NCBI RefSeq assembly: GCF_000970045.1
Contig: NZ_CP009505.1
Coordinates: 744,001-808,000, forward strand
Direction of reading: 5' to 3'
Source of the DNA: Methanosarcina sp. MTP4
GTDB lineage: Archaea; Halobacteriota; Methanosarcinia; Methanosarcinales; Methanosarcinaceae
Length of the DNA: 64,000 nt
Of this stretch, positions 14,978 through 52,389 are shown one piece after another. Position numbers and translations under genes: made by a program. The notes beneath the pieces were generated by a model. It made no database searches. It saw only the letters and a list, made by a program, of their open reading frames with translations, and was not told the origin of the DNA. Position 1 is the stretch's first letter. Each line of letters starts with the position of its first letter.

Positions 14978-15334
14978 TCAAGCTTCTGCAGTACCTTCAA
15001 CAGCTGTTTCCTCTTCCTTCTCCCCTGCCTCCCCCATTTTCCTTAACTCGGTTTGTGCATCTTCCTTATTGTACCTAGCTTCAGGATAAATCGACCTTAT
15101 TTCAAGTGCTTTGTCGAAGCAGGCAATGGCGTCCTCATACCTTTTAAGGACCACGTATTCAAGCCCTTTGAGGTTCCAGGCCCCGGCAAAGTCAGGCTTT
15201 AGCTCGATCACTTTGTCGAAGTATTCGATCTTTTTCTCGGGATCGGTTTCACCAACTGCGAGCCGGTACCACTCCTCTGCGGTCTTGCCTTCGATTTTCT
15301 TTTTCAGCAGTTTGTCCAGAAATCCCAACGACAT
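14978..15334 (-). CDS. Short TPR protein
   Basis: A 118-residue protein (MSLGFLDKLLKKKIEGKTAEEW and onward) with two to three tetratricopeptide repeats, e.g. AWNLKGLEYVVLKRYEDAIA then CFDKALEI. An acidic Glu-rich tail begins after residue 95. Its N-terminus is clearly paralogous to the TPR protein at 18384-18725, which shares a basic helix and the phrase KPDFAGAWN/KPNFAGALN. TPR domains bind other proteins. It is at the distal end of the run containing the AAA ATPase and ESCRT-III-like genes, so a scaffolding role there is suggested but not shown. Confidence 0.8.
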   Translation of the reverse strand: MSLGFLDKLLKKKIEGKTAEEWYRLAVGETDPEKKIEYFDKVIELKPDFAGAWNLKGLEYVVLKRYEDAIACFDKALEIRSIYPEARYNKEDAQTELRKMGEAGEKEEETAVEGTAEA

Positions 15335-15577
15335 CACTCCCTGTTAAATATGGGCTTTACTGGCAGAAATAAGTAGTGTCAGAAAAGGTCGTGACAGAAA
15401 TCGGTCGTGACAGAAATCGGTCGTGATAGAAGTAGGTCGTGACAGCCTTAAAGCCTTTAGATCTCTTTTTTGGAAGCTGACGCTATCTGATGTATGTTTA
15501 TTGAATCCCGGTTTTTTTGTCTTGCCAGCTTCAAGGTTTTTTCAAGCTTTCAGAACTTTCCAGACCCTGAGGTTTTT

Positions 15578-16636
15578 TCAAGCTTTGAGGGTTTCTTCCG
15601 GCCTTCCGAGTTTCTGGAGGAAATTTCCTTTTTCATTCCAGGCAGCAGTTGACCGGGGATCTAGCTTGAGAGCTTTATTATAACATCCCAAGGCATCTTC
15701 GTATCTCCCGAGGGTGGCCAGGACGTCGCACATGTTGAACCAGATATTTGCATTGTCCATCCTTAGTTCCAGCGCTTTTTCATATGCTTCAAGGGCTTCT
15801 TCGAGTTTTCCTAATTTAACTAAAACAATCCCCCTGTCATTCCACGGGCCTGCAAACTCCGGTTCAAGTTCAATGGCTCTGTCACAGGCTTCAAGCGCTT
15901 CCTCGTATCTCTCAAGCACGTAGAATGAAGCTGCCATGCTTCCCCAGGCCCTGAAAGATGCCGGGTTTAGCCAGAGGGCTTTTTTGAGGGCTTCGAGGGC
16001 TTCCTCATGCTTTTTAAGTTTGCGGAGTACTTTTCCCTTTCTGGTCCAGGAAGAAGCATCTTCAGGGCCTATTGAAAGTCCCTTCTCATAAGCCTCAAGT
16101 GCTTCTTCACACTTCCCGATAGTTTCCAGGGTATCTCCCATACAAAGCCAGACTTTTGAAAATTCAGGTTCAATGGAAATGGCTCTGTCAAAACAGTAGA
16201 GGGCTTTTTGCGCATTTCCAATTCGAGTATAAGAAATTCCTTTATTGAGCCAGGTCTCGGCAGTCTCAGGTTCCCGGGAAAGGATCTTTTTATAACATTC
16301 AACGGCTTCTCCGTACCTGGCTGCAGCGAAAAGGGCATTCCCTTTATATACCAGTGTTTTCAGGGAGTCAGGGCCGATTTCAAGAGCCCTGTCATAACAT
16401 TTGCTTGCACTTTCTGCAACCCCGAGTTCCAGCAGGGTATTTCCTTTTTCAATCCAGGCTTCAACATACTCAGGATTGCTTTTTAAGGCCCTGGCGTAAT
16501 ACAGCAATTTTTCTTCCGGGTCTGATGTGTCCAGGCCCTTCTCAAACCATTCTTTAGCCCGTTTACGGTTAATAACGTTATTTCCGGTTTCCCCATTTTT
16601 TTTCCTTCGACTAATTGTATCACCCCATAGATACAT
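15578..16636 (-). CDS. Long TPR protein (about nine repeats)
   Basis: A 352-residue protein made almost entirely of 34-residue tetratricopeptide repeats, recognisable by recurring AW..KG..L...G..EEAL..Y..AL...P (e.g. AWIEKGNTLLELGVAES, PWNDRGIVLVKLGKLEEALE, WFNMCDVLATLGRYEDALG). No signal peptide or membrane segment is seen, so it is cytoplasmic. The ATG at 16636 is the only good start, with GGGGAC just upstream. It lies between the short TPR gene and the AAA ATPase on the same strand. Such proteins act as multivalent scaffolds. The spacer 16637-16919 holds no supported gene. Confidence 0.88.
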   Translation of the reverse strand: MYLWGDTISRRKKNGETGNNVINRKRAKEWFEKGLDTSDPEEKLLYYARALKSNPEYVEAWIEKGNTLLELGVAESASKCYDRALEIGPDSLKTLVYKGNALFAAARYGEAVECYKKILSREPETAETWLNKGISYTRIGNAQKALYCFDRAISIEPEFSKVWLCMGDTLETIGKCEEALEAYEKGLSIGPEDASSWTRKGKVLRKLKKHEEALEALKKALWLNPASFRAWGSMAASFYVLERYEEALEACDRAIELEPEFAGPWNDRGIVLVKLGKLEEALEAYEKALELRMDNANIWFNMCDVLATLGRYEDALGCYNKALKLDPRSTAAWNEKGNFLQKLGRPEETLKA

Positions 16637-16919
16637 GTCCCCAAAAGCCAGGTATGGCTTTTTTAATTCTTGTCCTTTACGAAGTTCAACCTTTTAAAAC
16701 TTTTTATTTCATTCCATAATTTTTTAAAATCTTATATTGACTTGCAATCACCTGTCTTATATGTGGCCAGCTGGTCAATATGGGGTCAAGTATGAGTACT
16801 CAATCACAGATGTTTTCCCGGGTAACTCCGTGATACCAGAACTCTTTCAGAGGCTTGGAAGGAAAAAGAGACGGGGTGCTAGTGAGTTTTACGGAAAGGG
16901 ACAGGTGAAGGTAGAACTC

Positions 16920-18170
16920 TCAGCCTCCGAACTCCTCATTCCATTTCTCATACTTCGCAAGCTGCGCTTTCGTCAGGGGCGACCTTATCTTCTCAAACGC
17001 CGTTTCAAAATAATCAAACTTAAGGGAAGTTACATTCAGCTTCCTCTTCTCAAGTTCCTTGTAAGGCAGTTCCGCAAGCTTATCCAGGTCTTTATTCTCT
17101 TCCCGGATCATGTTCCACATAGCCTGCTGGCAGAGGTTCTGGAGGTCGCGGCCGGCGTAGAACTTTTCAACGCAGGTGGAAGCGAGCTTTTCCAGGTCAA
17201 GCTTTGAGGAGTCAAGGTCCTTTATGTGGATCTTGATAATCTCCTTGCAGGCGCTTTTGTCCGGGAGGGGCACCATGATACGGCGCGGGAACCTTGAGAG
17301 GACGGCTGCGTCCAGGTCCCAGGGGGTGTTGGTGGCTGCCAGGGTGAGCATTAGCCTGTTGCTCTTCTTGTCCTGCAGGCCGTCGAGTTCCGAGAGGAGG
17401 GTCGAGAGCAGGCGGCGGGAGGACTCGCTGGTTTCGCCTTCCCTGGAGAGGCTGATGGAGTCAAACTCGTCAATGAAAACAATTGATGGGGCATGGTTCC
17501 GGGCGGCTTTATAGAGGGCGGAAACCAGTTTTGAGGATTCTCCGAAGTACTTGGAAAGCACATTGTCAGCTTTTACATTGAAAAATTCGGCATCAAGGCT
17601 GCCGGCGGCAGCGGCAGCAAGGAGAGTCTTTCCGGTCCCCGGGGGCCCGAAGAGCATGATGCCTTTCCAGGGTTTGACCGAGCTTGGTTTCTGGAGCCCG
17701 GCAATGGCTATGGTTTCTTTCATAAGGCGCTTGACTTCTTCAAGGCCGCCGATGTCGTCCCAGTGGACAGAAGATTTCTCAATAAGGGCTTCGGCTTGAG
17801 CGAGCAGTTCGTCTTCACCTTCGACTTCCGCCCCTCCGGAACTTCCATTTCCGCTTCCACTTCCGCCTCCTCCTGTCCTGTCCGGACCGCTCCCAGTTCT
17901 TCCCCTGGATTTTCCGGAACGTGAAGACCCTTCCCTTTGTGCCCTGATGGAATTTTCCACATTACCAGCCATCCTTTCCCACTTTTCGGCTTTTTCAAGG
18001 TAGGCATTTTTCTGGGACGGGACTTTTTCGGCAAGGACTTTCATTATTTTTGCGCATTCCAGGGCTTTTTTCTTTGCCTTCCCGGCGTTTCCTTCGGCTT
18101 TTGCCTGCTTGTAATCTTTTGTGGCGTTTTCCAGGGAGGAGTACAGGGGGCCTGTCAGATCAACTTTCAT
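16920..18170 (-). CDS. Vps4/CdvC-like AAA ATPase with MIT-like N-terminal domain
   Basis: A 416-residue protein. Residues 1-75 form a three-helix MIT-like bundle (LENATKDYKQAKAEG, ALECAKIMKVLAEKV, NAYLEKAEKWERMA). A Gly/Ser linker follows to about 115, then one AAA domain: Walker A GPPGTGKT 165-172, pore-loop KYFGES 197-202, Walker B VFIDEFDS 221-228, and SESSRR 238-243. ATNTPWDLDAAV with FPRRIMVPLPD (270-294) marks the Vps4/katanin clade. The C-terminal helix AKYEKWNEEFGG matches the Vps4 C-terminus. In eukaryotes and Crenarchaeota, Vps4/CdvC disassembles ESCRT-III polymers. GAGGTG precedes the ATG. The neighbours at 18781 and 19450 are candidate substrates. Confidence 0.85.
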   Translation of the reverse strand: MKVDLTGPLYSSLENATKDYKQAKAEGNAGKAKKKALECAKIMKVLAEKVPSQKNAYLEKAEKWERMAGNVENSIRAQREGSSRSGKSRGRTGSGPDRTGGGGSGSGNGSSGGAEVEGEDELLAQAEALIEKSSVHWDDIGGLEEVKRLMKETIAIAGLQKPSSVKPWKGIMLFGPPGTGKTLLAAAAAGSLDAEFFNVKADNVLSKYFGESSKLVSALYKAARNHAPSIVFIDEFDSISLSREGETSESSRRLLSTLLSELDGLQDKKSNRLMLTLAATNTPWDLDAAVLSRFPRRIMVPLPDKSACKEIIKIHIKDLDSSKLDLEKLASTCVEKFYAGRDLQNLCQQAMWNMIREENKDLDKLAELPYKELEKRKLNVTSLKFDYFETAFEKIRSPLTKAQLAKYEKWNEEFGG

Positions 18171-18192
18171 TTGTGCACCTCATGGCGTCTTA

Positions 18193-18325
18193 ATTATAGT
18201 CAATAACCCAAATTTTTTCATAAATCTCAAGTGACAATTTAACCACAGAAAGCACGGAAAACACGGAATAAAGGAAATAGGGCACAACCCTTCCGTGCTT
18301 TCCGTGTCTTCCGTGGTTTTTTTGG
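18193..18325 (+). repeat. MITE-like palindromic repeat, copy 2 (right end missing)
   Basis: It starts ATTATAGTCAATAACCC, close to copy 1 (5479), and continues through the hairpin core AACCACAGAAAGCACGGAAA and its complement CCGTGCTTTCCGTG. It lacks the outer right segment with the second terminal repeat. It lies between the AAA ATPase gene (start 18170) and the TPR gene (stop 18384), splitting an otherwise same-strand run. Confidence 0.75.
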
Positions 18326-18383
18326 CTTTTATTTTCCGGATACCGTATTCCTGAATTTATTTTGGAACTTATTTCCGGAGCCT

Positions 18384-18725
18384 TTATTCTCCTTTCCCGG
18401 CTTTTGTTCCGGCTTCTGCCTCAGCCTCTTTCATCTTTTTCTCAAGATTTTCTTTATTGTACAGGGCTTCCCTGTAGGAGGGACGGATTGAAAGGGCTTC
18501 TTCATAGCATTTCATTGCCTCTTTGTACTCTCCCAGTTCGGCATGGGCATTTCCCAGAAGGTTCAAGGCGCCTGCAAAATTTGGCTTCAGCTTTACCACA
18601 TTGCCGAAGCACTCAACCTTTTTTGCAGGGTCTTTTTCCTTTGCGCCCTGCTCGAACCAGTCCTGGGAAGTTTTTCCGTCGATTTTTTTAGTAAATATTT
18701 GTTCTAAGAATCCTTTCAGTCCCAA
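18384..18725 (-). CDS. Short TPR protein, TTG start
   Basis: A 113-residue protein with about two tetratricopeptide repeats (ALNLLGNAHAELGEYKEAMK then CYEEALSIRP), a basic N-terminal helix MGLKGFLEQIFTKKIDGKT, and a Lys/Glu/Ala tail. It is paralogous to the protein at 14978-15334. The start is read as TTG at 18725, with GGGAGG seven to eight bases upstream; no better ATG exists. It sits directly downstream of the two ESCRT-III-like genes and upstream of the Vps4-like ATPase, so it probably serves the same complex. Confidence 0.8.
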   Translation of the reverse strand: MGLKGFLEQIFTKKIDGKTSQDWFEQGAKEKDPAKKVECFGNVVKLKPNFAGALNLLGNAHAELGEYKEAMKCYEEALSIRPSYREALYNKENLEKKMKEAEAEAGTKAGKGE

Positions 18726-18780
18726 AGCTCTGCCTCCCTAAGTTTTTTACACGGAGTTTATATGGATTTTTATACCGGAT

Positions 18781-19380
18781 TTATTCCAGGTCTTTTGGCC
18801 TGTACTCCTTGTTATCATTCACGACTTCTTCTGCTTCTTCAGGGTCAAGGTCCCCTTCTTTTACGGCGTGGATTGCGCTCAGGATATCGTCCAGGTCATC
18901 TTCCTGCTCGACTCCGGTCAGCATGGCCGTGGAGGTCATGTCAATGATGGAAGAGACAATCTCGTCCCGGTCCTGGGCTTCCAGGTTCTGGTTGACAAGC
19001 CAGTTTTCGAGCTTTTCGGGCTCGAGTTTCTTGACCTTGTCCCAGACCCCTGTTGCCTGGAGGTCAGCCTGGTGCTCCTTGAGGATCAGCATGTTGGAGA
19101 CAGCCCGGAGTTCCTTATCGAGTTTCGCCTGGGCGGCGATTTTCATCTCCTTTCTCTGGGAAACTGTCTTGATCCTGCGGGCCAGGGTGAGTTCTTCACT
19201 TTTTGATTTGGCGGCTTTTGCTTTTTCGAAAAGTTTAGCTACCTCACTTTCCGTTGCCCTGACTTCAGCCTGGAGGTCTTCGATCTTGCGGTTCAGTTTA
19301 ATCTCCATGACCCGGAGTTCTTCGGTCTTCATGGAGTCAATCGGGTCCTTGCTTCCGAACAGTTTTGAAAAGATGCCCAT
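18781..19380 (-). CDS. ESCRT-III/PspA-like helical protein (paralogue 1)
   Basis: A 199-residue all-helical protein. It begins MGIFSKLFGSKDP, much like Snf7/CHMP4 N-termini, followed by long charged helices (LNRKIEDLQAEVRATESEVA, QRKEMKIAAQAKLDKELRAV). The first 110 residues are basic and the last 60 acidic (EQEDDLDDILSAIHAV, LDPEEAEEVVND). Basic core plus acidic tail is the ESCRT-III layout, and LDDILSAIHAVK could serve as a MIM-like helix for an MIT domain. It is paralogous to 19450-20061 (shared VSNL/VSNM region and WDK.....E..EN). Membership in the ESCRT-III/PspA superfamily is inferred from pattern and from the Vps4-like neighbour, not proven. Confidence 0.6.
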   Translation of the reverse strand: MGIFSKLFGSKDPIDSMKTEELRVMEIKLNRKIEDLQAEVRATESEVAKLFEKAKAAKSKSEELTLARRIKTVSQRKEMKIAAQAKLDKELRAVSNMLILKEHQADLQATGVWDKVKKLEPEKLENWLVNQNLEAQDRDEIVSSIIDMTSTAMLTGVEQEDDLDDILSAIHAVKEGDLDPEEAEEVVNDNKEYRPKDLE

Positions 19381-19449
19381 CCTTTCTCTCCCTCTAATTT
19401 TTTAGGCTCCTGTGCTGTAATGCTTCTTATCTTGTAGGCGTCAGGTCTT

Positions 19450-20061
19450 TCAAAACTCGGTTTCTTCCCTTTCCTTCTCAAGGCTCTTTTCAAGGGAGAT
19501 GGTCTGCTCGACCTCGTCCACGTCCATTGCCCCGGTTTCAACGCTGCTCCAGGCGTCAAGGAGCTGGGACTCGGCTTCGTCTTCCCCTGCTTCGAATTCG
19601 GTTATGTCCATCTCGAAAACCCTGTTCAGGTCATTCAGGACTTCATCGAAGTCTTTTCCAACAAGGCTGGTGTTGATGAGGGCACTTTCGAAGTTCTCGG
19701 AGCCAATTTCTCCTATCTTGTCCCAGATCTTGTTTTTCTTGAGGTCCTGTTCGTACTTCTTGACCACAGTCAGGTTGGAGACGAACATGTACTGCTTGTT
19801 GATGGTCGTGAAGTTCTTGAGCTTAAGCCGGGCTTCGGTGTCAAGCTGCTTAATTTCCTGGGCAAGCATCTTCTTTTTCATCATGTCTGCCCCGACTCCC
19901 TCCTGGAACTTCTGCTTCTTGTCCTTCTCGATCTTATTGATGTCTTTCCTGATCCTTTCCATACGGTTCTTCAGGCGGATCTCCTCTTCCTGGAGGTCTC
20001 TAGTGTTCAGTTTGTCAACCGGGTTCTTCTTAAACGAGTCCATTATGTCCTTGATTCCCAT
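19450..20061 (-). CDS. ESCRT-III/PspA-like helical protein (paralogue 2)
   Basis: A 203-residue helical protein from the ATG at 20061 (AGGTG six bases upstream; other starts lie at 20067 and 20070). It begins MGIKDIMDSFKKNPVDKL, continues with basic coiled-coil helices (EEEIRLKNRMERIRKDINKI, QLDTEARLKLKNFTTINKQY), then IWDKIGEIGSENFESALI, and ends in an acidic tail (FEAGEDEAESQLLDAWSS). It shares length, domain order and conserved points with 18781-19380. It is the first minus-strand gene after the divergent promoter region at 20070-20455, so it probably leads the operon with the second paralogue, a TPR protein and the Vps4-like ATPase. Confidence 0.6.
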   Translation of the reverse strand: MGIKDIMDSFKKNPVDKLNTRDLQEEEIRLKNRMERIRKDINKIEKDKKQKFQEGVGADMMKKKMLAQEIKQLDTEARLKLKNFTTINKQYMFVSNLTVVKKYEQDLKKNKIWDKIGEIGSENFESALINTSLVGKDFDEVLNDLNRVFEMDITEFEAGEDEAESQLLDAWSSVETGAMDVDEVEQTISLEKSLEKEREETEF

Positions 20062-20093
20062 GCTCATCACCTGCGGAGTTATTTCTTGCCTGA

Positions 20094-20197
20094 TTTCAAG
20101 TTTAATTTGTAATGTCTACTTTCAAGTTTAATTTCTAATGTTATTTTCCAGTTTAATTTTTAATGTTATTTTCAAGTTTAATTTCTAATGTCTATTT
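20094..20197. repeat. 25/26-bp tandem repeat upstream of the ESCRT-like operon
   Basis: Four copies of a unit close to TTTCAAGTTTAATTTCTAAT plus five or six bases. Copies differ by a few substitutions and one length change. They lie in the 393-base divergent spacer between 20061 and 20455. The rest of the spacer is AT-rich and contains the promoter of the plus-strand gene at 20455. No gene is seen in the spacer. Confidence 0.75.
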
Positions 20198-20420
20198 GAT
20201 CGTTTTAGTTGTTATATTTTATTTTTTTCAAGTTGTTTTTGGTATATTTTGCTCTCTTGCTGAGTTCAGATGCTTATTTTTCATGACTTTAAGTCTTGAT
20301 AGATTATTAGCGAGTACGTGCTATATAAATTTTCCTCCAATATGGAGAATAACCCTCAATTTCCCAAATTCTGAATTTTAATAAATTTCCTGAAAACTTC
20401 ATATATCCAAAACGGAGGTA

Positions 20421-20454
20421 AATTTATATAGGGCGATCTCCCTACTCTTTAAAG
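20421..20454 (+). promoter_or_regulatory. Promoter giving a near-leaderless transcript
   Basis: AAATTTATATAGGG around 20420-20433 is a strong archaeal TATA box. Its expected start site, about 25 bases downstream, falls almost exactly on the ATG at 20455, and there is no ribosome-binding sequence between them. The message for the 177-residue protein is therefore probably leaderless. Confidence 0.55.
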
Positions 20455-20988
20455 ATGGAATATCTGTTTACCATTGATTACGGTTCGGACGCCGAACGCA
20501 AACGGATCGATTATACTGTCGAGCGGTGGAGTGATAGGGCAAAGGTAAAAAAGCCCAGGGGCGCCGTGCTGCTCTTCAAAGGCCCCGACGTGGACGAGTT
20601 CATTGAAGACCTCTATTCAAGGCTCGATATTGATGCCGGAAAGGTGGAGATTTTTCGGATTGAGCCGTATGAGCCGTCCGTTGAAAAACAGAGCCGAAAA
20701 CTTGTTTATGAGAGCCCTGAGAGGTTTGAAGCTATCCAGAGCTTTTTGAATTATCTTATGAGCAAGCTCGGGGCCAGCTTTGAGTATTCCACTGAGAGTG
20801 CCAGTTACTACACCGCTTACACAAAAAAAGGGCAGGCAGAACTTGAGATCCGCTGGATCGGTTGTGCTGGTGGGGACGAGGGGGAAGAAAGGGCTCTCCG
20901 CTTTGTAATCAGCGTCGAAGGATATGGAAACGTTGTTGATTTTATTGCCGATAAGCTTGATGAAGAAATGAGAATTTTCCTTGGATAA
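20455..20988 (+). CDS. Hypothetical acidic protein next to the ESCRT-like cluster
   Basis: A 177-residue soluble protein starting MEYLFTIDYGSDAERKRIDY, with a mixed alpha/beta pattern: GAVLLFKGPDVDEFIEDLYS, then ASYYTAYTKKGQAELEIRWI, then VVDFIADKLDEEMRIFLG. No family is recognised and there is no membrane segment. It is divergent from the ESCRT-III-like operon and precedes the coiled-coil and kinase genes on the plus strand. Its promoter appears leaderless. A function shared with its neighbours is conjecture. Confidence 0.65.
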   Translation: MEYLFTIDYGSDAERKRIDYTVERWSDRAKVKKPRGAVLLFKGPDVDEFIEDLYSRLDIDAGKVEIFRIEPYEPSVEKQSRKLVYESPERFEAIQSFLNYLMSKLGASFEYSTESASYYTAYTKKGQAELEIRWIGCAGGDEGEERALRFVISVEGYGNVVDFIADKLDEEMRIFLG

Positions 20989-21137
20989 CTAAGGGACATA
21001 AATTCAGAAGACCGTTTATGCAAAATAGCACTGAAAATAAAAGTAATATAAATAACAAAGTACTGAATATAATAAAAGTACTGAAAATAATTTAAGAATA
21101 TCAGCAGGGAAGACGAGTAGATTTCTTAGACGGTAGG

Positions 21138-23093
21138 GTGAGTACATTGTTTGCAGAGGGAAATATCGATTGTGCTGAAAAACTTCTGAAGCCCGCAAAA
21201 AGGGTTCTGAAAGTGGGGATGCCCGTAAAACACGATGCCTTTGAGCGAAGAGTCGATCTCTGGAATAAAATCCGGATGAATTACGACAGCTACCTGGATG
21301 AAGAATGCGGGACGTTTCTTAAAGACCTTGACCAGCACTTCTGCTCCCTTTTTGATGGTGCGCTCCTGGTGCTTGCGGCAAGTTTCAGGGAAAACGGGGA
21401 ATTTTTCGGGGCTGCAAACATCTTCAGTGCCGAAGAAGTTGCACTTTACAGGAAAATTGAGCGCTACAACCTCTTTGAAATCCTCTCTGCAGACGATATA
21501 CGGAAAAAACTCCTCCAGAAAGACGATAAGGTACTCGAGCTTCTCAGGGACTATTACGTTTCCATGGACTCCTGGGTGGGTGAACAGCTCGATGACCCTT
21601 CCCTCAGGCTCACTCTGCGCTATTACCTGAAGAAAAAATGGGACGGCTACAAGGAAAAGCTCAACTCCGCCGTCAGTTCCTCGGTCCTGGAACTGGACTG
21701 GCTCAAGTCTCTCATTAAATCCTGGGAATCCGCAACCGATGCAAAGGTCAAGGCAAGCACGAGGGAGCTTGGCGCGGAAAAAGAAAGGGCTGAGGCAGAA
21801 AAGGAACTTGCCGAGGCAGAGCTTGAAAAACTGGGTACGGAAAAAACCCTTGCAGAAGAAAGTCTGATACAGGCGGAGGCTGAAAAAGCCCATGCTGAAG
21901 CCGAGGCCCAGGGCCTTGAATCCGAAAAGGAAGAAGCAGAAGCCCGGATTAAGCTGCTTTCCGAAAAGAGGGATGAAGCCGAGTCTCTCCTTCAGGCAGT
22001 GGCCGAAGATAAGTCCCGGGCTGAGTCCCAGCTACAGGAAATTGCCTCCCAGAAAGCCGAAGCTGAGTCCAGGCTCAGGGAGATGCAGGCTGAAAGGTCC
22101 GGAAGCGAAGAACAGATAAAAGCCCTTGAGTCCGAAAAAGCAAAGGTTGAAGAACAGATCCAGGCCCTTGCTGCTGAAAAAGAGCTGGCGGAAAAGCAGG
22201 CCACTGAAATGGCTGCCGATAAGGCAAAGGTTGAAGAAAAGTTCAGGCGGCTTTCGGAAGAAAAAGCCCTGATAGAAGGAAAGGGCAGCAGGTACGTCAA
22301 ACTTGAAGAAGTTAAGCAGTATGAGTTGAATTTCATTGGCAGGGTCGAGCACAAACTCGGAAACTCGGTAACCCTCTGCGGGAAAAACTACAAAGTGGAC
22401 TCCCCCAGGGAAATCAAGCAGGTTGATACCTCCCGCTTTGCCGAAAGCTTCGGGCTCTCCGAGCGGGACCTGAAAAACCTTCCCGAAAACCGAGCCCTTC
22501 TTGCTTCTTTCGTGGAAAAGAAGCTCCTCGGGAAAAAGCAGAGGTACGACCTCAAAGCCCTCTTCTCCGCCCGCGTGGAGCGCTATGCAGAGTTTGGCTA
22601 TGACACTGATCCCCTGGAACTCAAAGACGTCAATGCCTACCTTGTGGACGCCAGGGACGAAGCCCGGGAAAAAGGAGAATCTGCTCTCCTCTGCCTTGCC
22701 TCTCCTACCGGTTTTGAAGATGCCGTGGGCAGCTACATCAGCAGCGATGACTTCCACCGGAACTTCCTCTCAAAATACCTCTCAGTCTGCCTTCTTGACC
22801 TTGAAACCGGAAAGCAGCTCTACAACCCTCACGACACCCTCGCAAAGGAGTTTGCAGGAATCTGTGAGATGGAAACCGAATCCGAAAAGAGCGAAAAATT
22901 GAAACTTGAGGTCCGGAAAGCGATAGAAGACGGGCTTCTCGTAAAAGATTACGTGGTCTTTGGCGACCTGATGAAAAGCTTCGGGAACACCCCTGCTCTT
23001 AAGTCTCTGTTTTACGATTATGCTGATGAAGGGGGCTTGAAGATCCAGTTTGTTGAGGATGTGGGGCTCGTTCTGATGCGGGAAGGGGCGTAA
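21138..23093 (+). CDS. Coiled-coil protein of unknown function
   Basis: A 651-residue protein. The N-terminal 200 residues are globular and helical (RVDLWNKIRMNYDSYLDEEC). Residues about 205-385 form a long heptad-rich coiled coil dominated by Ala/Glu/Lys (repeats like AEKELAEAELEKL and ESEKAKVEEQIQALA). The C-terminal 265 residues are a globular domain (YDLKALFSARVERYAEFGYD) of no known family. The frame opens with GTG at 21138; a TTG at 21147 with GGTGA five bases upstream is an equally good start. It lies between the leaderless hypothetical gene and the Ser/Thr kinase, all on one strand. A structural or scaffold role is likely. Confidence 0.75.
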   Translation: MSTLFAEGNIDCAEKLLKPAKRVLKVGMPVKHDAFERRVDLWNKIRMNYDSYLDEECGTFLKDLDQHFCSLFDGALLVLAASFRENGEFFGAANIFSAEEVALYRKIERYNLFEILSADDIRKKLLQKDDKVLELLRDYYVSMDSWVGEQLDDPSLRLTLRYYLKKKWDGYKEKLNSAVSSSVLELDWLKSLIKSWESATDAKVKASTRELGAEKERAEAEKELAEAELEKLGTEKTLAEESLIQAEAEKAHAEAEAQGLESEKEEAEARIKLLSEKRDEAESLLQAVAEDKSRAESQLQEIASQKAEAESRLREMQAERSGSEEQIKALESEKAKVEEQIQALAAEKELAEKQATEMAADKAKVEEKFRRLSEEKALIEGKGSRYVKLEEVKQYELNFIGRVEHKLGNSVTLCGKNYKVDSPREIKQVDTSRFAESFGLSERDLKNLPENRALLASFVEKKLLGKKQRYDLKALFSARVERYAEFGYDTDPLELKDVNAYLVDARDEAREKGESALLCLASPTGFEDAVGSYISSDDFHRNFLSKYLSVCLLDLETGKQLYNPHDTLAKEFAGICEMETESEKSEKLKLEVRKAIEDGLLVKDYVVFGDLMKSFGNTPALKSLFYDYADEGGLKIQFVEDVGLVLMREGA

Positions 23094-23209
23094 TTGGGGT
23101 TTATGGAATTCGTAGATTCCCTGAATCTCCTGAAAACCATTTAAGAAAATACTTATAGCGCTGTAAAATATATTCTTAATTGTTTTAAAATAATTTCAGA
23201 ATAAGTTTA

Positions 23210-23352
23210 AAATACTCCGGCTCAAAAAAATTCCATCTCAAAACAACTCTTGTTTAAAACAATTAAGCCTCAAAACAACCCAAATTCAAAACAACTCCGA
23301 TTCAAAATAACCCATATTCGAAACAATTCAGGTTCAAAATAACTCACTTTCA
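23210..23352. repeat. Degenerate short repeats (TTCAAAACAACTC type)
   Basis: About seven imperfect units of roughly 18-20 bases, each around TTCAAAACAAC or TTCAAAATAAC, fill the 5' spacer of the kinase gene. Units vary in sequence and length. No gene or clear TATA box stands out in 23094-23367. Confidence 0.6.
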
Positions 23353-23367
23353 ACCCTGGTGATTCCT

Positions 23368-26076
23368 ATGACTAGAAAACCCCCCCTTCAACTGTTCTTA
23401 CTTCTGGTCCTGCTCGGCTGCATGGTCCAGTGCGCGGCAGCCGGGTCCGGTGATGAGAATCCCTGGGTCTATGAACCTACCAATGACATCTATGGGATGT
23501 ACGACGGGATAAACGATGTTTTCTGGGTATATGACCCTCTCGACGACGTCTTCTGGAAACTGGATGTGTATAATGGGGAAATCTCAGGGCTTACCGGATA
23601 TTCGATAAGTTATGGCCTGGATAATGATCCATCAGGTCACTACGTTCTTTTTTGGGTTCAAGGGGCAACTGAATACGAAATCTTTGCCTACGACTCCGGT
23701 TCTGAACAGATTTTTCTGTATGACTCCTACAATGCAGCTTACTGGGCATATGAACCTGACCCGGACCTTGTCTGGGATTATGTTGATGCCGGGGAAATGT
23801 TTCCTGATGCCGGGGGTGCTGAAAGTGTCGAGTATGAAGACTGGACCGAGGAGTGGGCTGAGGACTGGGTTGTAGAAGAGGGGGTAGATTCTTCACTTTC
23901 ATCCGAATCGGAGCCTTTCCTTACCAATGAAGAACTGGTTGACAGTCTGGTCTGGCATAGGACTGAAAACGAGGGCTATTTCTGGAGTTATGCTCCTGCA
24001 AGAGACTTTTTTTTGATGTATTCCCCTTACAACGGGATTCTGGCCGTTTATGAATCCAGGGAAGACCTGTGGCGAGTCTACGGGGAGCCTGAAGCCAGAG
24101 AAGTTGCCTGGCAAAGGGAAGGAGATCTCGGAATCGTCTGGATCTATGACTCGACTGAAGACCTTTTCTGGATTTATTATCCCGATTATGAATTTATACA
24201 GGGTTATTCGGTTTCCAGGGAACTTTTCTGGGACTTTCCGGTAGAGCGGCTGAACTTTGCCGGGGAAATGTCCGAGAGAGCTCAGAGTTCTTCTGCCGGT
24301 CAGGTGGCGCCGGAAAACCCTGACGATTCCTCCGGTGAGGGTGGTGGACTTCTTTTCCTGCTCTTTATCGTGGGCGGGCTATTTTTGCTAAAGCGGAGAA
24401 GATCTAAAAAGAAGGCAAAGGCTGCAATGTCTCCGGTTTCTCCGGATCCTTCTGGTTCTTCAAGTCCTTCAAATCCTTCCGGTAGTCAAAGTGTCTCCAG
24501 TACTTCCGATCCTGGCAGGGCATCGGATTATGAAGTGAAAGCAGCTGGCAAAAGCAAAGAAAATAAAAGTAAGGACAGTAAAAGCGAAGAAAATAAGAAA
24601 ATGGACAATAAGGGTGAGAAAAAGGGCTTTGGCTGGAAAAAGCTGAAAAAAGAAAAAATCCCAGAGGAAAAAGGAGTTCCTGCGTCGGCTTCTCCAGTTG
24701 ATGCGGCCCCCCCGGTAAAAGGTTCCCCTGTTATAGATCCCATCCCTCCGATGACTGATGCGGTTCCGCAGAATGCGGCTTCCACATATGCACCTGCACC
24801 TGCACCTGCGCCTGAATCTGTGCCTACGGGTGGTGAACAGCAGGTCGAAGGGGCAGGGGAAGAGAACGTGGGAGAAAAGGTTTCCCTGCCCGGTGACGGT
24901 GAGCTTTCCCCTGTTGAAGGTTTCCCTGCTGCGCTCCTTTCAAAATACGAGCCTTTTGAGCTGCTCGGAAAAGGCGGCTTTGCATCTGTTTATAAGGCAA
25001 AGAGGAAGGATGATGGCGAAATTTTGGCCCTGAAAATTCCGCGGATTGACGAAAAGACCAGCTCCTCTTTCATAAAAGAAGTGGCTGCCTGGTACAACCT
25101 GAACCATCCGAACATCGTAAGGCTGTATAAGTCCGACCTCCTGCCCGTGCCTTACCTGGAGATGGAATATGTTGAAGGGGTGGAAAAAGACGGCATTTCG
25201 ATCCTGGAACTTGAAAAGTACCCGAAACCCCTGCCCGAAGCCGGAGCTTTGAAGCTTATCCGGGGAATTGCGGCAGGGCTTTCCCATGCCCATTCCAGGG
25301 GAATTTACCACCACGACTTAAAACCCCTTAACGTGCTCCTCCAGAGTGACCTGGACCCGAAGATCACAGACTTCGGGCTTGCGAAAATAGGGGCTAGAAA
25401 CTCCCTGACCACTCACAACGCCTATTCTCCCCTCTACGCAGCTCCCGAACAGCTCGATGAAAAGCTTTACGGGAAACCTGACAGGAGGACTGACATCTAC
25501 CAGCTCGGGATGATCTTTTACGAACTCCTTTGCGGGAAACTTCCCTATTCCGGGTGTTCCATGGGAGCCGTTCTCGGAAAAATTCTCTCCAAAGAAGTAA
25601 AGCCCGAAGCTATTTCCAGAGTCAACCCAACCCTTAGCCGTTACGAAGGTATCGTTGAAAAGATGCTTGCTCAGGAAAAAGCGGACCGGTACCAGGAAGT
25701 CCCGGAATTCCTTGCAGCCCTCGACGCTCTCGAAAGGCTGGACCGGGAAGAAGATGAAATGAAAGAAAGCCTGGAAAAGACAAAACAGACCCTCAAAATA
25801 AGCACGAGCCGGGAAGATATCAAAAAGATTGTCTGTGAAGTGGTTGAAAAGACCGCAAAGGTTGCTCTTCTTTATGCAGGTGTTAACGAGAAGCCCGAAC
25901 TTTTGAAAGCTCTGGAAGACCTCCGGGGTTATGCCGGGGAAAACCTCCCGGAACTTGACAGTGCGATTTCTCAGCTGGAGTACATGGTCTGGAACGGGAT
26001 TCCCGTAGGAAAGGAGTTCGAAGAAAGCCTCAAAGTCCTGCTTGGGAGAATTGAGAGTGAATCCGGGAAAGAATGA
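23368..26076 (+). CDS. Membrane-anchored eukaryote-like Ser/Thr protein kinase with aromatic-repeat ectodomain
   Basis: A 902-residue protein from the ATG at 23368 (GGTGA five bases upstream). A signal peptide (LQLFLLLVLLGCMVQC) is followed by an ectodomain to about residue 320 with six or more W/Y-rich units such as FWVYDPLDDVFWKL, YWAYEPDPDLVWDY and WIYDSTEDLFWIYY. A membrane helix (LLFLLFIVGGLFLL, about 326-345) leads to a basic, low-complexity Ser/Pro/Lys linker. The Hanks-type kinase is at about 525-790: glycine loop GKGGFASVY, ALKIPR lysine, HHDLKPLN, DFG and APEQ are all intact. The C-terminus is helical. It should sense an outside signal and phosphorylate cytoplasmic targets; the neighbouring genes are candidates. 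Confidence 0.88.
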   Translation: MTRKPPLQLFLLLVLLGCMVQCAAAGSGDENPWVYEPTNDIYGMYDGINDVFWVYDPLDDVFWKLDVYNGEISGLTGYSISYGLDNDPSGHYVLFWVQGATEYEIFAYDSGSEQIFLYDSYNAAYWAYEPDPDLVWDYVDAGEMFPDAGGAESVEYEDWTEEWAEDWVVEEGVDSSLSSESEPFLTNEELVDSLVWHRTENEGYFWSYAPARDFFLMYSPYNGILAVYESREDLWRVYGEPEAREVAWQREGDLGIVWIYDSTEDLFWIYYPDYEFIQGYSVSRELFWDFPVERLNFAGEMSERAQSSSAGQVAPENPDDSSGEGGGLLFLLFIVGGLFLLKRRRSKKKAKAAMSPVSPDPSGSSSPSNPSGSQSVSSTSDPGRASDYEVKAAGKSKENKSKDSKSEENKKMDNKGEKKGFGWKKLKKEKIPEEKGVPASASPVDAAPPVKGSPVIDPIPPMTDAVPQNAASTYAPAPAPAPESVPTGGEQQVEGAGEENVGEKVSLPGDGELSPVEGFPAALLSKYEPFELLGKGGFASVYKAKRKDDGEILALKIPRIDEKTSSSFIKEVAAWYNLNHPNIVRLYKSDLLPVPYLEMEYVEGVEKDGISILELEKYPKPLPEAGALKLIRGIAAGLSHAHSRGIYHHDLKPLNVLLQSDLDPKITDFGLAKIGARNSLTTHNAYSPLYAAPEQLDEKLYGKPDRRTDIYQLGMIFYELLCGKLPYSGCSMGAVLGKILSKEVKPEAISRVNPTLSRYEGIVEKMLAQEKADRYQEVPEFLAALDALERLDREEDEMKESLEKTKQTLKISTSREDIKKIVCEVVEKTAKVALLYAGVNEKPELLKALEDLRGYAGENLPELDSAISQLEYMVWNGIPVGKEFEESLKVLLGRIESESGKE

Positions 26077-36084: not shown

Positions 36085-36729
36085 TTAGTTTCCTCCGAGA
36101 GGCTGGACATTGTCCGATACGTCCATTTCCAGTTCGGATTTATCAACATCGAATACGATCATACCTGTGTTGAGCTTTTCAATTTCTTCCTTAGTGAGTT
36201 TGTATTCCCTGACTTTCTTTGAAATTATCGCACTGTTTCCCATGGGGTCTTCGACTATGACCGTAATCGTTCTTTTGCCCTCGAGCACTTCATCGAGCAT
36301 GCAGAGAAGGTCCTGGCTGCGGGATAACCTTTCTTCATCATCTTTTACCCATCTACCTGCCATTTCCAGGACATCCCGGACCCGCTGCAGTACACCTTCG
36401 ATGTTCGTTATGTATGAGTCCGAAACCGCTCCAGGCTCGATATTGATCCCCATCTCCGGGATGCGGATGGTGCCTGAGGTCGAACGTATGACCCTTGCGT
36501 CCAGATCTTCCAAGTTTTCAACTGTCAGTTCATAACGCATAGGCTCCTTGCTTGTGAGGATCATGGTGTCTGCAAAGCGGAAACTGCATTTGCAATTCGC
36601 ACTTATGTACATGACATCCCCGAAATATGGGATATTATCCCTCTGCCAGTGCATCACCATTTCACTGTGACAGAGTGGGCAGGAGACCCGGGTCTCAAAA
36701 CTTTCTTGTGTAAAAAAATCTTTGTTCAA
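36085..36729 (-). CDS. ZPR1-type zinc-finger domain protein
   Basis: A 214-residue protein. A ZPR1-like zinc finger at residues 17-50 (CPLCHSEM then ANCKCSFRF, CxxC...CxC) is followed by the ZPR1 beta domain with RVIRSTSGTIRIPEMGI and IEPGAVSDSYITNIEGVL. Eukaryotic ZPR1 binds the elongation factor eEF1A and helps its folding; the archaeal version may act likewise. The start is a TTG that overlaps the TGA stop of sepF, with GGTGGA six bases upstream, so the two genes are translationally coupled. Confidence 0.87.
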   Translation of the reverse strand: MNKDFFTQESFETRVSCPLCHSEMVMHWQRDNIPYFGDVMYISANCKCSFRFADTMILTSKEPMRYELTVENLEDLDARVIRSTSGTIRIPEMGINIEPGAVSDSYITNIEGVLQRVRDVLEMAGRWVKDDEERLSRSQDLLCMLDEVLEGKRTITVIVEDPMGNSAIISKKVREYKLTKEEIEKLNTGMIVFDVDKSELEMDVSDNVQPLGGN

Positions 36730-37106
36730 TATCTTCCACCAATGAGTTTGGATCTGTCTATCTTTACGCCCGTGGGGGTTACGATCACAGTACTTCCTTT
36801 AACTCCTGCAATGTCTCCGTGGACGTCAACCACTACATCTTTGAGCTCTTTTAAAACCCTATCCCTCAGCAGTTCGTCACTCCGGATGGTCGAAATGTCG
36901 ATCATCAGGATGTTCCCGTTGTACACTTCCTGTTTCAGTGCGGCTACCTGGTTGATGTTCGTTATTTCTGCAATTTTTATGTAGGTTTCCGCAGGTTCGT
37001 CCTCAAGGACCTCCTCATACTTGCTGAGGTCAATTTCCGTGTAGTCGTCGGCAATGGTCGCGCTTTTTACGTTGCCGCCAAGGATCTTGTCTATGAGTTT
37101 CGCCAT
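36726..37106 (-). CDS. sepF: SepF-like cell division protein
   Basis: A 126-residue protein with an N-terminal amphipathic helix (MAKLIDKILG) that would bind the membrane, a variable acidic linker, and the SepF core: TYIKIAEITNINQVAALKQE, ILMIDISTIRSDELLRDRVL, VVDVHGDIAGVKGSTVIVTP. In archaea SepF anchors FtsZ to the membrane at the division site. FtsZ is encoded at 51211-52389. It overlaps the ZPR1-domain gene by four bases and lies 258 bases downstream of a PUA gene on the same strand. Confidence 0.9.
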   Translation of the reverse strand: MAKLIDKILGGNVKSATIADDYTEIDLSKYEEVLEDEPAETYIKIAEITNINQVAALKQEVYNGNILMIDISTIRSDELLRDRVLKELKDVVVDVHGDIAGVKGSTVIVTPTGVKIDRSKLIGGRY

Positions 37107-51210: not shown

Positions 51211-52389
51211 TTAGTTTATGAAGTCAATGATCGAATTGTCGTTCTTTTTCCTTATTTCACCCATTTCTCCCCCTCTGGAGTCCTGGTTCACTCTTCCTAA
51301 CCTTTTTGCCCGGAAGGCTTCGGCTTCGCTCTGGGGTTCCAGGATGCCGGCACCTGCCTGTGGACCGAGGATCTGGGCTGACTGGACGCCGGTCATGATT
51401 GCCATAACACGGACCTTGCCCTCGTAATCGTCCCTGATTCTTGCGCCCCAGATGACATTGGCGTTGGATGAAAGTTCGTAGGTGAGCATGGAGGCGATTT
51501 CTTCTGCTTCCTTCAGGCTCAGGTCCGGCCCTCCGGTCACATGCACCAGGCTCCCGCTTGCACCCTTGTAATCGACGTCAAGCAGAGGGTGGTTCAGGGC
51601 AGTCCGCACTACTTCCGTGCTCTTGTCCTGGCTCTTGGACTCGCCCACGAGCATTACGGCAACCCCGCCGCAGCTCATGATGGTCCTGATGTCGGCGTAG
51701 TCAAGGTTTATCAGGGAAGGCACGGTGATAGTTTCGGTTATGCCTTTTACGGTTTCGGAAATGAGCTGGTCCATGACTGAGAAGGCCTGGTCGATTGGCA
51801 GGTTGGGCACGTAGTTGAGCAGCCTGTTGTTGTCCAGGACGATCACAGTGTCCGCTGCCCGGCGGAATTCTTCAAGTCCTTCCTCTGCTTTGACAGTGCG
51901 GGCTCTCTCAACCCTGAAGGGGCTGGAGACCATGCCTACTACGATGGCTCCCTGCTCTTTTGCGACTTCTGCGACTACAGGGGCAACACCGGTCCCGGTA
52001 CCTCCCCCGAGGCCTGCGGTAACGAATACAAGGTCAGCGTCTTTTAATACTTCTTCAAGAGTGCCTCTTGCAAGTTCGGCGGCTTTCTTCCCGGTTTCGG
52101 GGTACCCGCCGGCTCCCAGACCCCTTGTGAGGGTTTTTCCCACCAGGATCTTCTTGTCAGCCCTCACGTTGTCCAGATGCTGCTTGTCAGTGTTGATGCA
52201 GACGGTTTCCGCACCTTCAATCCCGATATTGTAGAGTCGGTTTATGGTGTTGTTCCCGGCACCCCCGCAGCCTATGATCATGATCCTCGGCTGGCCGAAT
52301 TCTTCAAAATCTTCATCTGATGCCGCTTTTTTCCGGAATTCCTTCTCTTTTTCAGTATATTTCATTGCTTCCTGTACTATAGATTGCAA
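51211..52389 (-). CDS. ftsZ: Cell division GTPase FtsZ
   Basis: A 392-residue tubulin-like GTPase that forms the division ring. It shows the nucleotide-binding [15 protein letters not shown], the tubulin signature [14 protein letters not shown] (about 126-139), and the T7 catalytic loop [16 protein letters not shown]. The C-terminal tail ends in [11 protein letters not shown], a likely SepF contact. The frame begins with TTG at 52389 behind GAGGGGATG; an internal ATG ([10 protein letters not shown]) with AGGA upstream is also possible. SepF is encoded at 36726-37106. The window also encodes a Vps4-like ATPase. Confidence 0.95.

Follow-up and report, generated by a model that had tools for sequence, protein, structure and literature searches.

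A probable Main-clade archaeal ESCRT locus in Methanosarcina sp. MTP4 with a palindromic promoter element nearly exclusive to it

Positions 14978-26076 of a 64-kb stretch of the Methanosarcina sp. MTP4 genome (the whole stretch is called the window below) hold a set of genes that a preliminary description took for a membrane-remodelling locus of the endosomal sorting complex required for transport (ESCRT) type. Our computational analysis puts the probability that this is a Main-clade archaeal ESCRT locus at roughly four in five; what is new is a palindromic promoter element, TCC-N5-GGA, that is near-exclusive to the locus. The genome is a single 4.21-Mb contig (99.9% complete), and the open reading frames predicted earlier are all present in the window. 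A minus-strand group, consisting of the ESCRT-III-like proteins HB (19450-20061, 203 residues; an upstream GTG would start it at 20070) and HA (18781-19380, 199 residues), a small tetratricopeptide repeat (TPR) protein, a Vps4-type AAA ATPase (16920-18170, 416 residues) and two further TPR proteins, diverges from a plus-strand group made up of a 177-residue protein (20455-20988), a coiled-coil protein (21138-23093, 651 residues) and a membrane Ser/Thr kinase (23359-26076, 905 residues). The 177-residue protein, little stressed in the preliminary description, proved to be a core member of the locus. FtsZ (51211-52389; TIGR00065, 414.8 bits) and SepF (36726-37106), both said to lie in the window, were located there.

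The ATPase carries a Pfam AAA domain (127.8 bits) and a Vps4_C domain (27.7 bits; cut-off 21.3), and the C-terminal motif EKWNEEFGG, singled out earlier, is conserved. In an AlphaFold2 (AF2) model built from a 24-row alignment, one of two structure models made (the other being of HA), residues 1-79 (17934-18170, minus strand) form a three-helix bundle with helices 6-26, 29-49 and 51-78 (pLDDT 87.2). In Foldseek, the bundle as a whole is matched best by the MIT domain of Sulfolobus Vps4 (entries 2v6y and 2w2u; TM 0.77/0.80; root-mean-square deviation 1.8-1.9 Å, 1.8 Å for 2v6y). Vps4 MIT entries also recur in the VIA list at Z 9-11, with 2w2u at Z 10.9 over 73 residues, although helical bundles can reach such values by chance and we give them no decisive weight. 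Fold, together with position ahead of AAA and Vps4_C, thus suggests that the N-terminus is the MIT-like domain it had been proposed to be. In a tree of AAA modules, the ATPase falls into one clade (98/100) with proteins from Thermococci, Archaeoglobi, Methanomicrobiales and a Methanothermococcus.

HA and HB are paralogous (27% identity, E about 1e-17 per genome; 99.8% and E 7e-28 in profile-profile comparison), and each combines a basic core with an acidic tail (net charges +5/-17 for HA and +11/-22 for HB), as the preliminary description had it. Folded from an 18-row alignment of HA and HB sequences, HA is predicted to form a hairpin of helices 19-55 and 60-102, followed by helices 104-110, 112-118, 121-130 and 138-156 and ending in an acidic C-terminal helix, 161-174 (AF2, pLDDT 80.7). 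About half of the best 50 Foldseek rows from the PDB for this model are chains of the ESCRT-III superfamily, among them CdvB2, CHMP2A-CHMP3, CHMP3, Asgard ESCRT-IIIB, Snf7, Vipp1 and PspA, and the Snf7 core 5fd9 ranks first in VIA (Z 11.3, 2.3 Å, 92 residues). A global profile alignment of HA to human and yeast ESCRT-III reached 73% (E 4e-6), against 0.2% for a reversed control. Within the pair, the N-terminal stretch MGIFSKLFG is similar to the CHMP4B membrane helix (MSVFGKLFG). The acidic C-terminal helix is conserved, reading EELxEILxTIRAVKEGELEPE in HA and ExELxxAWxxVExG in HB; by our own comparison it resembles the eukaryotic MIM1 consensus without matching it. HA is modelled with an ESCRT-III hairpin, for which sequence alone gives weak evidence, and HB appears ESCRT-III-like by virtue of its homology to HA.

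A number of results weigh against this assignment. The Foldseek E-values for HA lie between 0.1 and 2.4 (0.5-2.4 for the chains of the ESCRT-III superfamily), and the VIA score of the HA-Snf7 pair is tied with those of unrelated helical hairpins (SerRS, dynein). HB by itself gave no hhalign match to the eukaryotic ESCRT-III profiles. The Pfam Snf7 model, an aid to detection and no defining feature of the superfamily, stayed below cut-off on both HA and HB; among 14 control genomes, one of them Sulfolobus acidocaldarius, it passed its cut-off in none, and this model therefore cannot decide. Searching the PDB with sequence profiles returned chance-level matches for HA and HB, with a CdvB chain at E 0.05 within that noise, and for the MIT-like domain and the 177-residue protein alike. 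The Pfam MIT model likewise fell below cut-off on the ATPase N-terminus, and the profile comparison with MIT that had been proposed returned no signal: hhalign against four MIT sequences gave 0.4%, under the 34.7% of a reversed-MIT control, and for this reason sequence profiles are left out as MIT evidence. Among NCBIfam models, CDC48 (206 bits) outscores CdvC (183 bits) on the ATPase. Finally, the AAA tree, with VPS4B and CdvC among its sequences, does not unite the clade of the window ATPase with CdvC/VPS4. The placement of the ATPase in a Vps4/CdvC clade accordingly stands by domain architecture, and the tree leaves the clade node unsettled.

The preliminary description had linked these parts into one system by gene order, and co-occurrence now adds to that link, as does the promoter element considered below. 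The ATPase and the HA/HB pair occur in the identical 7 of 101 family genomes; in a phylum sample of 295 genomes the ATPase is found in 10 and the pair in 9 nested within those 10. The tenth genome (G311), without a detected pair, is assembled in 290 contigs, which makes the absence unsure; the genomes in both samples are related, so that these counts are not independent events. Among 33 loci from named genomes, picked by a single HB scan so that HB is present by design, and several of them cut at contig ends, HA occurs in 32, the ATPase in 28, the coiled-coil and the 177-residue proteins in 27 each and the kinase in 22. HA lies directly beside HB on the same strand in all 32. The block recurs, with shuffled gene order, in Methanomicrobiales, Archaeoglobi, Thermococci and a Methanothermococcus, and the neighbourhood is thus kept in other families and orders. 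The three outcomes named in advance as speaking against an ESCRT locus accordingly came out the other way: HA has a related predicted fold, the ATPase N-terminus resembles MIT in its modelled structure, and the neighbourhood is conserved.

Several loci are unusual. In Methanocalculus and f24 genomes, HA is directly followed by zinc-ribbon SPFH (Band_7) proteins (L048 3256-5103; L051 5701-7701). Highly similar loci (L050/L074, L078, L083) occur in bins labelled Archaeoglobus and Thermococci, through recent transfer or mis-binning. HB is cut to a 106-residue frame in a second locus of one genome (G181; L052 7994-8300), and the second ESCRT-III match of another (G182; L043, C8:2916-3473) has two in-frame TGA; decay or a frame artefact is possible in both. 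A divergent HB-HA-AAA set (L093; HB 41% identity) lies on a 4.9-kb contig labelled Chloroflexi. This contig and those labelled Oscillospiraceae and Bacilli are short, and the latter two are probably mis-binned, because their loci resemble those of Methanomicrobiales and Methanocorpusculum. A second ATPase of this type in genome G001 (L022 284-1471) was excluded from the system; it lies on a small contig with a zinc-ribbon protein and a long protein of Sel1 repeats as neighbours, and the 3-kb stretch examined there holds no ESCRT-III gene. A search of a viral contig set with HB found no relatives.

Between HB and the 177-residue gene, two elements face outward: TCCATATTGGAGGAAAATTTATATAG (20346-20321, minus strand), directed at HB, HA, TPR and AAA, and TCCAAAACGGAGGTAAATTTATATAG (20406-20431, plus strand), directed at the 177-residue, coiled-coil and kinase genes. 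In each, TCC-N5-GGA(G) forms a palindrome that stands about 5 nt ahead of the TATA box. Allowing up to three mismatches, TCCAWAWYGGAGRWAWATTTATATAG has no matches in this genome other than these two; genomes G069 and G079 likewise have exactly two each, in the corresponding position. A looser pattern recovers both locus sites in G000, G011, G025 and G035 and one in G001, whose second copy is readable in its sequence; away from the locus it finds at most one site per genome, similar to its backward control. Across 17 genomes there are 15 occurrences of the strict pattern TCC-N5-GGAG-N5-TTTAWA, all but one of them at the locus (14, in 12 genomes); five of the 17 have none, and the backward control gives 5 occurrences. 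The bare TCC-N5-GGA is not rare (35 in the window), and what gives it meaning is where it stands and that it is paired. Each of the 19 distinct divergent gaps has one or more bare palindromes and 16 have two, where dinucleotide shuffles lead one to expect 0.9 and 0.03, respectively; the three gaps with one exact copy, all Methanocorpusculum-like, contain a second copy in variant form. The spacing of the pair is characteristic of each lineage, at 70-71 bp in Methanosarcinaceae, 40-41 bp in Methanocalculus, Methanogenium and relatives, and 28 bp in another group of Methanomicrobiales.

The combination of palindrome and TATA box also marks particular genes. Counting rows that include close relatives, it stands upstream of 19 of 28 177-residue genes and 16 of 36 HB genes (expected 0.07 and 0.11), and upstream of none of 168 starts of AAA, HA, coiled-coil, kinase, phosphatase, SPFH and TPR genes. 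Four Thermococcus or Thermococci loci have the element at the head of the operon, before the 177-residue gene, and none before their internal HB; one Archaeoglobi locus, in which HB comes first, has it ahead of HB. An exact copy was not found in the other Archaeoglobi loci, in some Thermococci or in the Methanoregula type. In four loci of this last type, neither a 177-residue gene nor an element before HB was detected, a paired absence within one clade that may point to the 177-residue gene as the regulator.

Because the motif was first spotted in the window, the window is no independent test of it; the other orders are. Near-exclusivity to the locus and pairing at lineage-fixed spacing imply a dedicated ESCRT regulator. 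On balance we favour the view that TCC-N5-GGA is the operator of such a conserved, ESCRT-specific regulator, possibly encoded in the operons themselves (by the 177-residue gene or the coiled-coil, winged-helix gene) and kept across Thermococci, Archaeoglobi, Methanomicrobiales and Methanosarcinaceae, so that Main-clade ESCRT would be an inducible module under one switch. The element abuts the TATA box, which is the position of a B recognition element (BRE), and could accordingly be a BRE variant that makes for a strong core promoter without any dedicated regulator. This seems unlikely, as the element is palindromic, is paired at fixed distances, is nearly absent in promoter context elsewhere in the genome and is kept across orders, unlike a general promoter part.

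Two repeats lie close to these promoters and genes. A 25-bp tandem repeat of 4.1 copies (20094-20197) separates the leftward TATA box from HB, presumably as part of the HB 5' leader; relatives have fewer or zero copies of it. An interspersed palindromic repeat of about 80 bp (18240-18320), with many matches in close relatives, lies between the small TPR gene and the ATPase gene; with 40 copies scored in the genome, it was rejected as a regulatory site.

For the remaining genes, Pfam scans over all members of the HA, HB, MIT, 177-residue and coiled-coil families gave no meaningful match. By size, architecture and universality, we tentatively equate the 177-residue protein with arCOG08177 (Cas2-like and TBP fold) and the coiled-coil protein with arCOG09748 (C-terminal ESCRT-II-like winged helix), as these are described in the Main-clade catalogue (PMC10936438). 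An hhalign comparison of the 177-residue protein with Methanosarcina Cas2 gave nothing. The coiled-coil protein has conserved ends and a central coiled coil that varies among relatives. Hydropathy places a signal-like helix of the kinase near residue 8 and a transmembrane helix near residue 328; the protein also has an extracellular region rich in W/Y-D and a kinase domain at 530-778 (Pfam Pkinase), and some related loci contain a PP2C phosphatase. The three TPR proteins are present as the preliminary description claimed, along with the coiled-coil and kinase frames, and were identified by Pfam: two small paralogues (14978-15337 and, between HA and the ATPase, 18384-18725) and a larger protein (15578-16636) that adjoins the ATPase in most Methanosarcinaceae loci, all on the minus strand. 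As parts of the locus they are accessory, being mostly confined to Methanosarcinaceae loci. The kinase of genome G079 carries a fused TPR array.

The Main-clade assignment draws on domain architecture, the MIT-like fold, the HA fold, co-occurrence, the gene set and the near-exclusive promoter element; from these we infer that HB and HA polymerise and are bound through MIT, as well as the adaptor roles, the function and the existence of a regulator. In ESCRT systems generally, ESCRT-III subunits copolymerise and their tail helices are bound by the ATPase. By analogy, HB and HA would copolymerise on the inner membrane face through N-terminal amphipathic helices and basic hairpins, and the MIT domain of the ATPase would bind their acidic C-terminal helices and extract subunits; the polymer would thereby turn over, bending or cutting the membrane. 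The 177-residue and coiled-coil proteins may act as ESCRT-I/II-like adaptors, the membrane kinase may relay an outside signal that controls assembly, and the TPR proteins may provide a lineage-specific scaffold. Both operons would be switched jointly by the dedicated regulator reading TCC-N5-GGA beside each TATA box. Since FtsZ and SepF are present, the task is likely to be vesicle formation, sorting or envelope repair rather than division.

The task might also be a PspA/Vipp1-like response to envelope stress, with HA/HB scaffolds sealing or stabilizing damaged membrane, the ATPase recycling them and the kinase sensing stress. PspA and Vipp1 are among the fold matches of HA, a dedicated operator is compatible with an inducible stress response, and the zinc-ribbon SPFH protein beside HA in some relatives is the partner type of Bacillus subtilis PspA, according to PMC10936438. 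Yet an ATPase with MIT and Vps4_C domains and two paralogous subunits are hallmarks of ESCRT. We regard this as a tentative alternative; it differs from the Main-clade reading in the task assigned to the same machinery, and the two overlap.

Other functions are harder to reconcile with the data. A second, ESCRT-based system for cytokinesis or abscission, working alongside or after FtsZ, would recall the TACK archaea, which divide by ESCRT-III and Vps4 (PMC10936438), and FtsZ and SepF do lie within the same window; however, complete relatives manage without the locus, which is patchily spread (7 of 101 family genomes), and no CdvA was recognised among its neighbours, so that we consider such a role very unlikely. 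Least probable of all is that the ATPase is an unfoldase of the Cdc48 or katanin type and the helical pair an unrelated coiled-coil substrate or adaptor. The top NCBIfam score and the many unrelated chains that match helical hairpins would agree with this, but the MIT-like N-terminus and Vps4_C, the near-perfect co-occurrence with the helical pair and the fit to a described ESCRT clade argue for the Main-clade ESCRT reading.

The presence of the locus beside intact FtsZ and SepF in the Methanosarcina group makes a non-division role of ESCRT testable, and genetic tools are available for some species of this group. The promoter element offers a direct handle, as knowing its binding protein and the inducing condition should reveal what the system does. 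In our judgement, it is unusual for archaea that a cis-element stays with a single set of genes across orders, and if the element is indeed a single switch, archaeal Main-clade ESCRT becomes an inducible module.

Among known systems, bacterial PspA/Vipp1 with YdjI shares with the locus the ESCRT-III superfamily fold and, in some relatives, an SPFH partner; it is not known to include a Vps4-type MIT ATPase. The CdvABC system of Sulfolobales/Thermoproteota has the same MIT-AAA-Vps4_C ATPase, on whose MIT domains the predicted fold superposes as given above, and several ESCRT-III paralogues; the window locus differs in that FtsZ and a kinase are present and its ESCRT-III proteins have no fused winged helix. 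The Meth_adaptin systems of Methanobacteriales have in common the zinc-ribbon SPFH protein found beside some relatives of the locus, a partner reported for them in PMC10936438. They carry adaptin-like, GOLD and ProX proteins, none of which was recognised at the window locus. The closest counterpart is the Main clade, catalogued in 2024 (Makarova et al., PMC10936438), all of whose members have Vps4, ESCRT-III, arCOG09748 and arCOG08177, and many a kinase and a phosphatase; its taxa include Thermococcales, Methanococcales, Methanomicrobiales and Halobacteriales, these archaea also have FtsZ, and sorting of phosphorylated proteins is its proposed role. The consulted sections of that study mention neither Methanosarcina nor the promoter element, and in the literature as far as it was accessible, euryarchaeal ESCRT systems are predicted from genomes, with no experiment on them found. 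Compared with this description, the window locus differs in having a pair of ESCRT-III genes and three TPR proteins, and the outer region of its kinase is of another kind. It shares the joint occurrence of Vps4 and ESCRT-III genes, a Ser/Thr kinase with a transmembrane helix and, in some relatives, PP2C, while the two extra universal genes fit arCOG09748 and arCOG08177 in size, architecture and taxa. In gene set and taxa the locus thus matches the Main clade as described there, and belongs to an already described class rather than to a new system.

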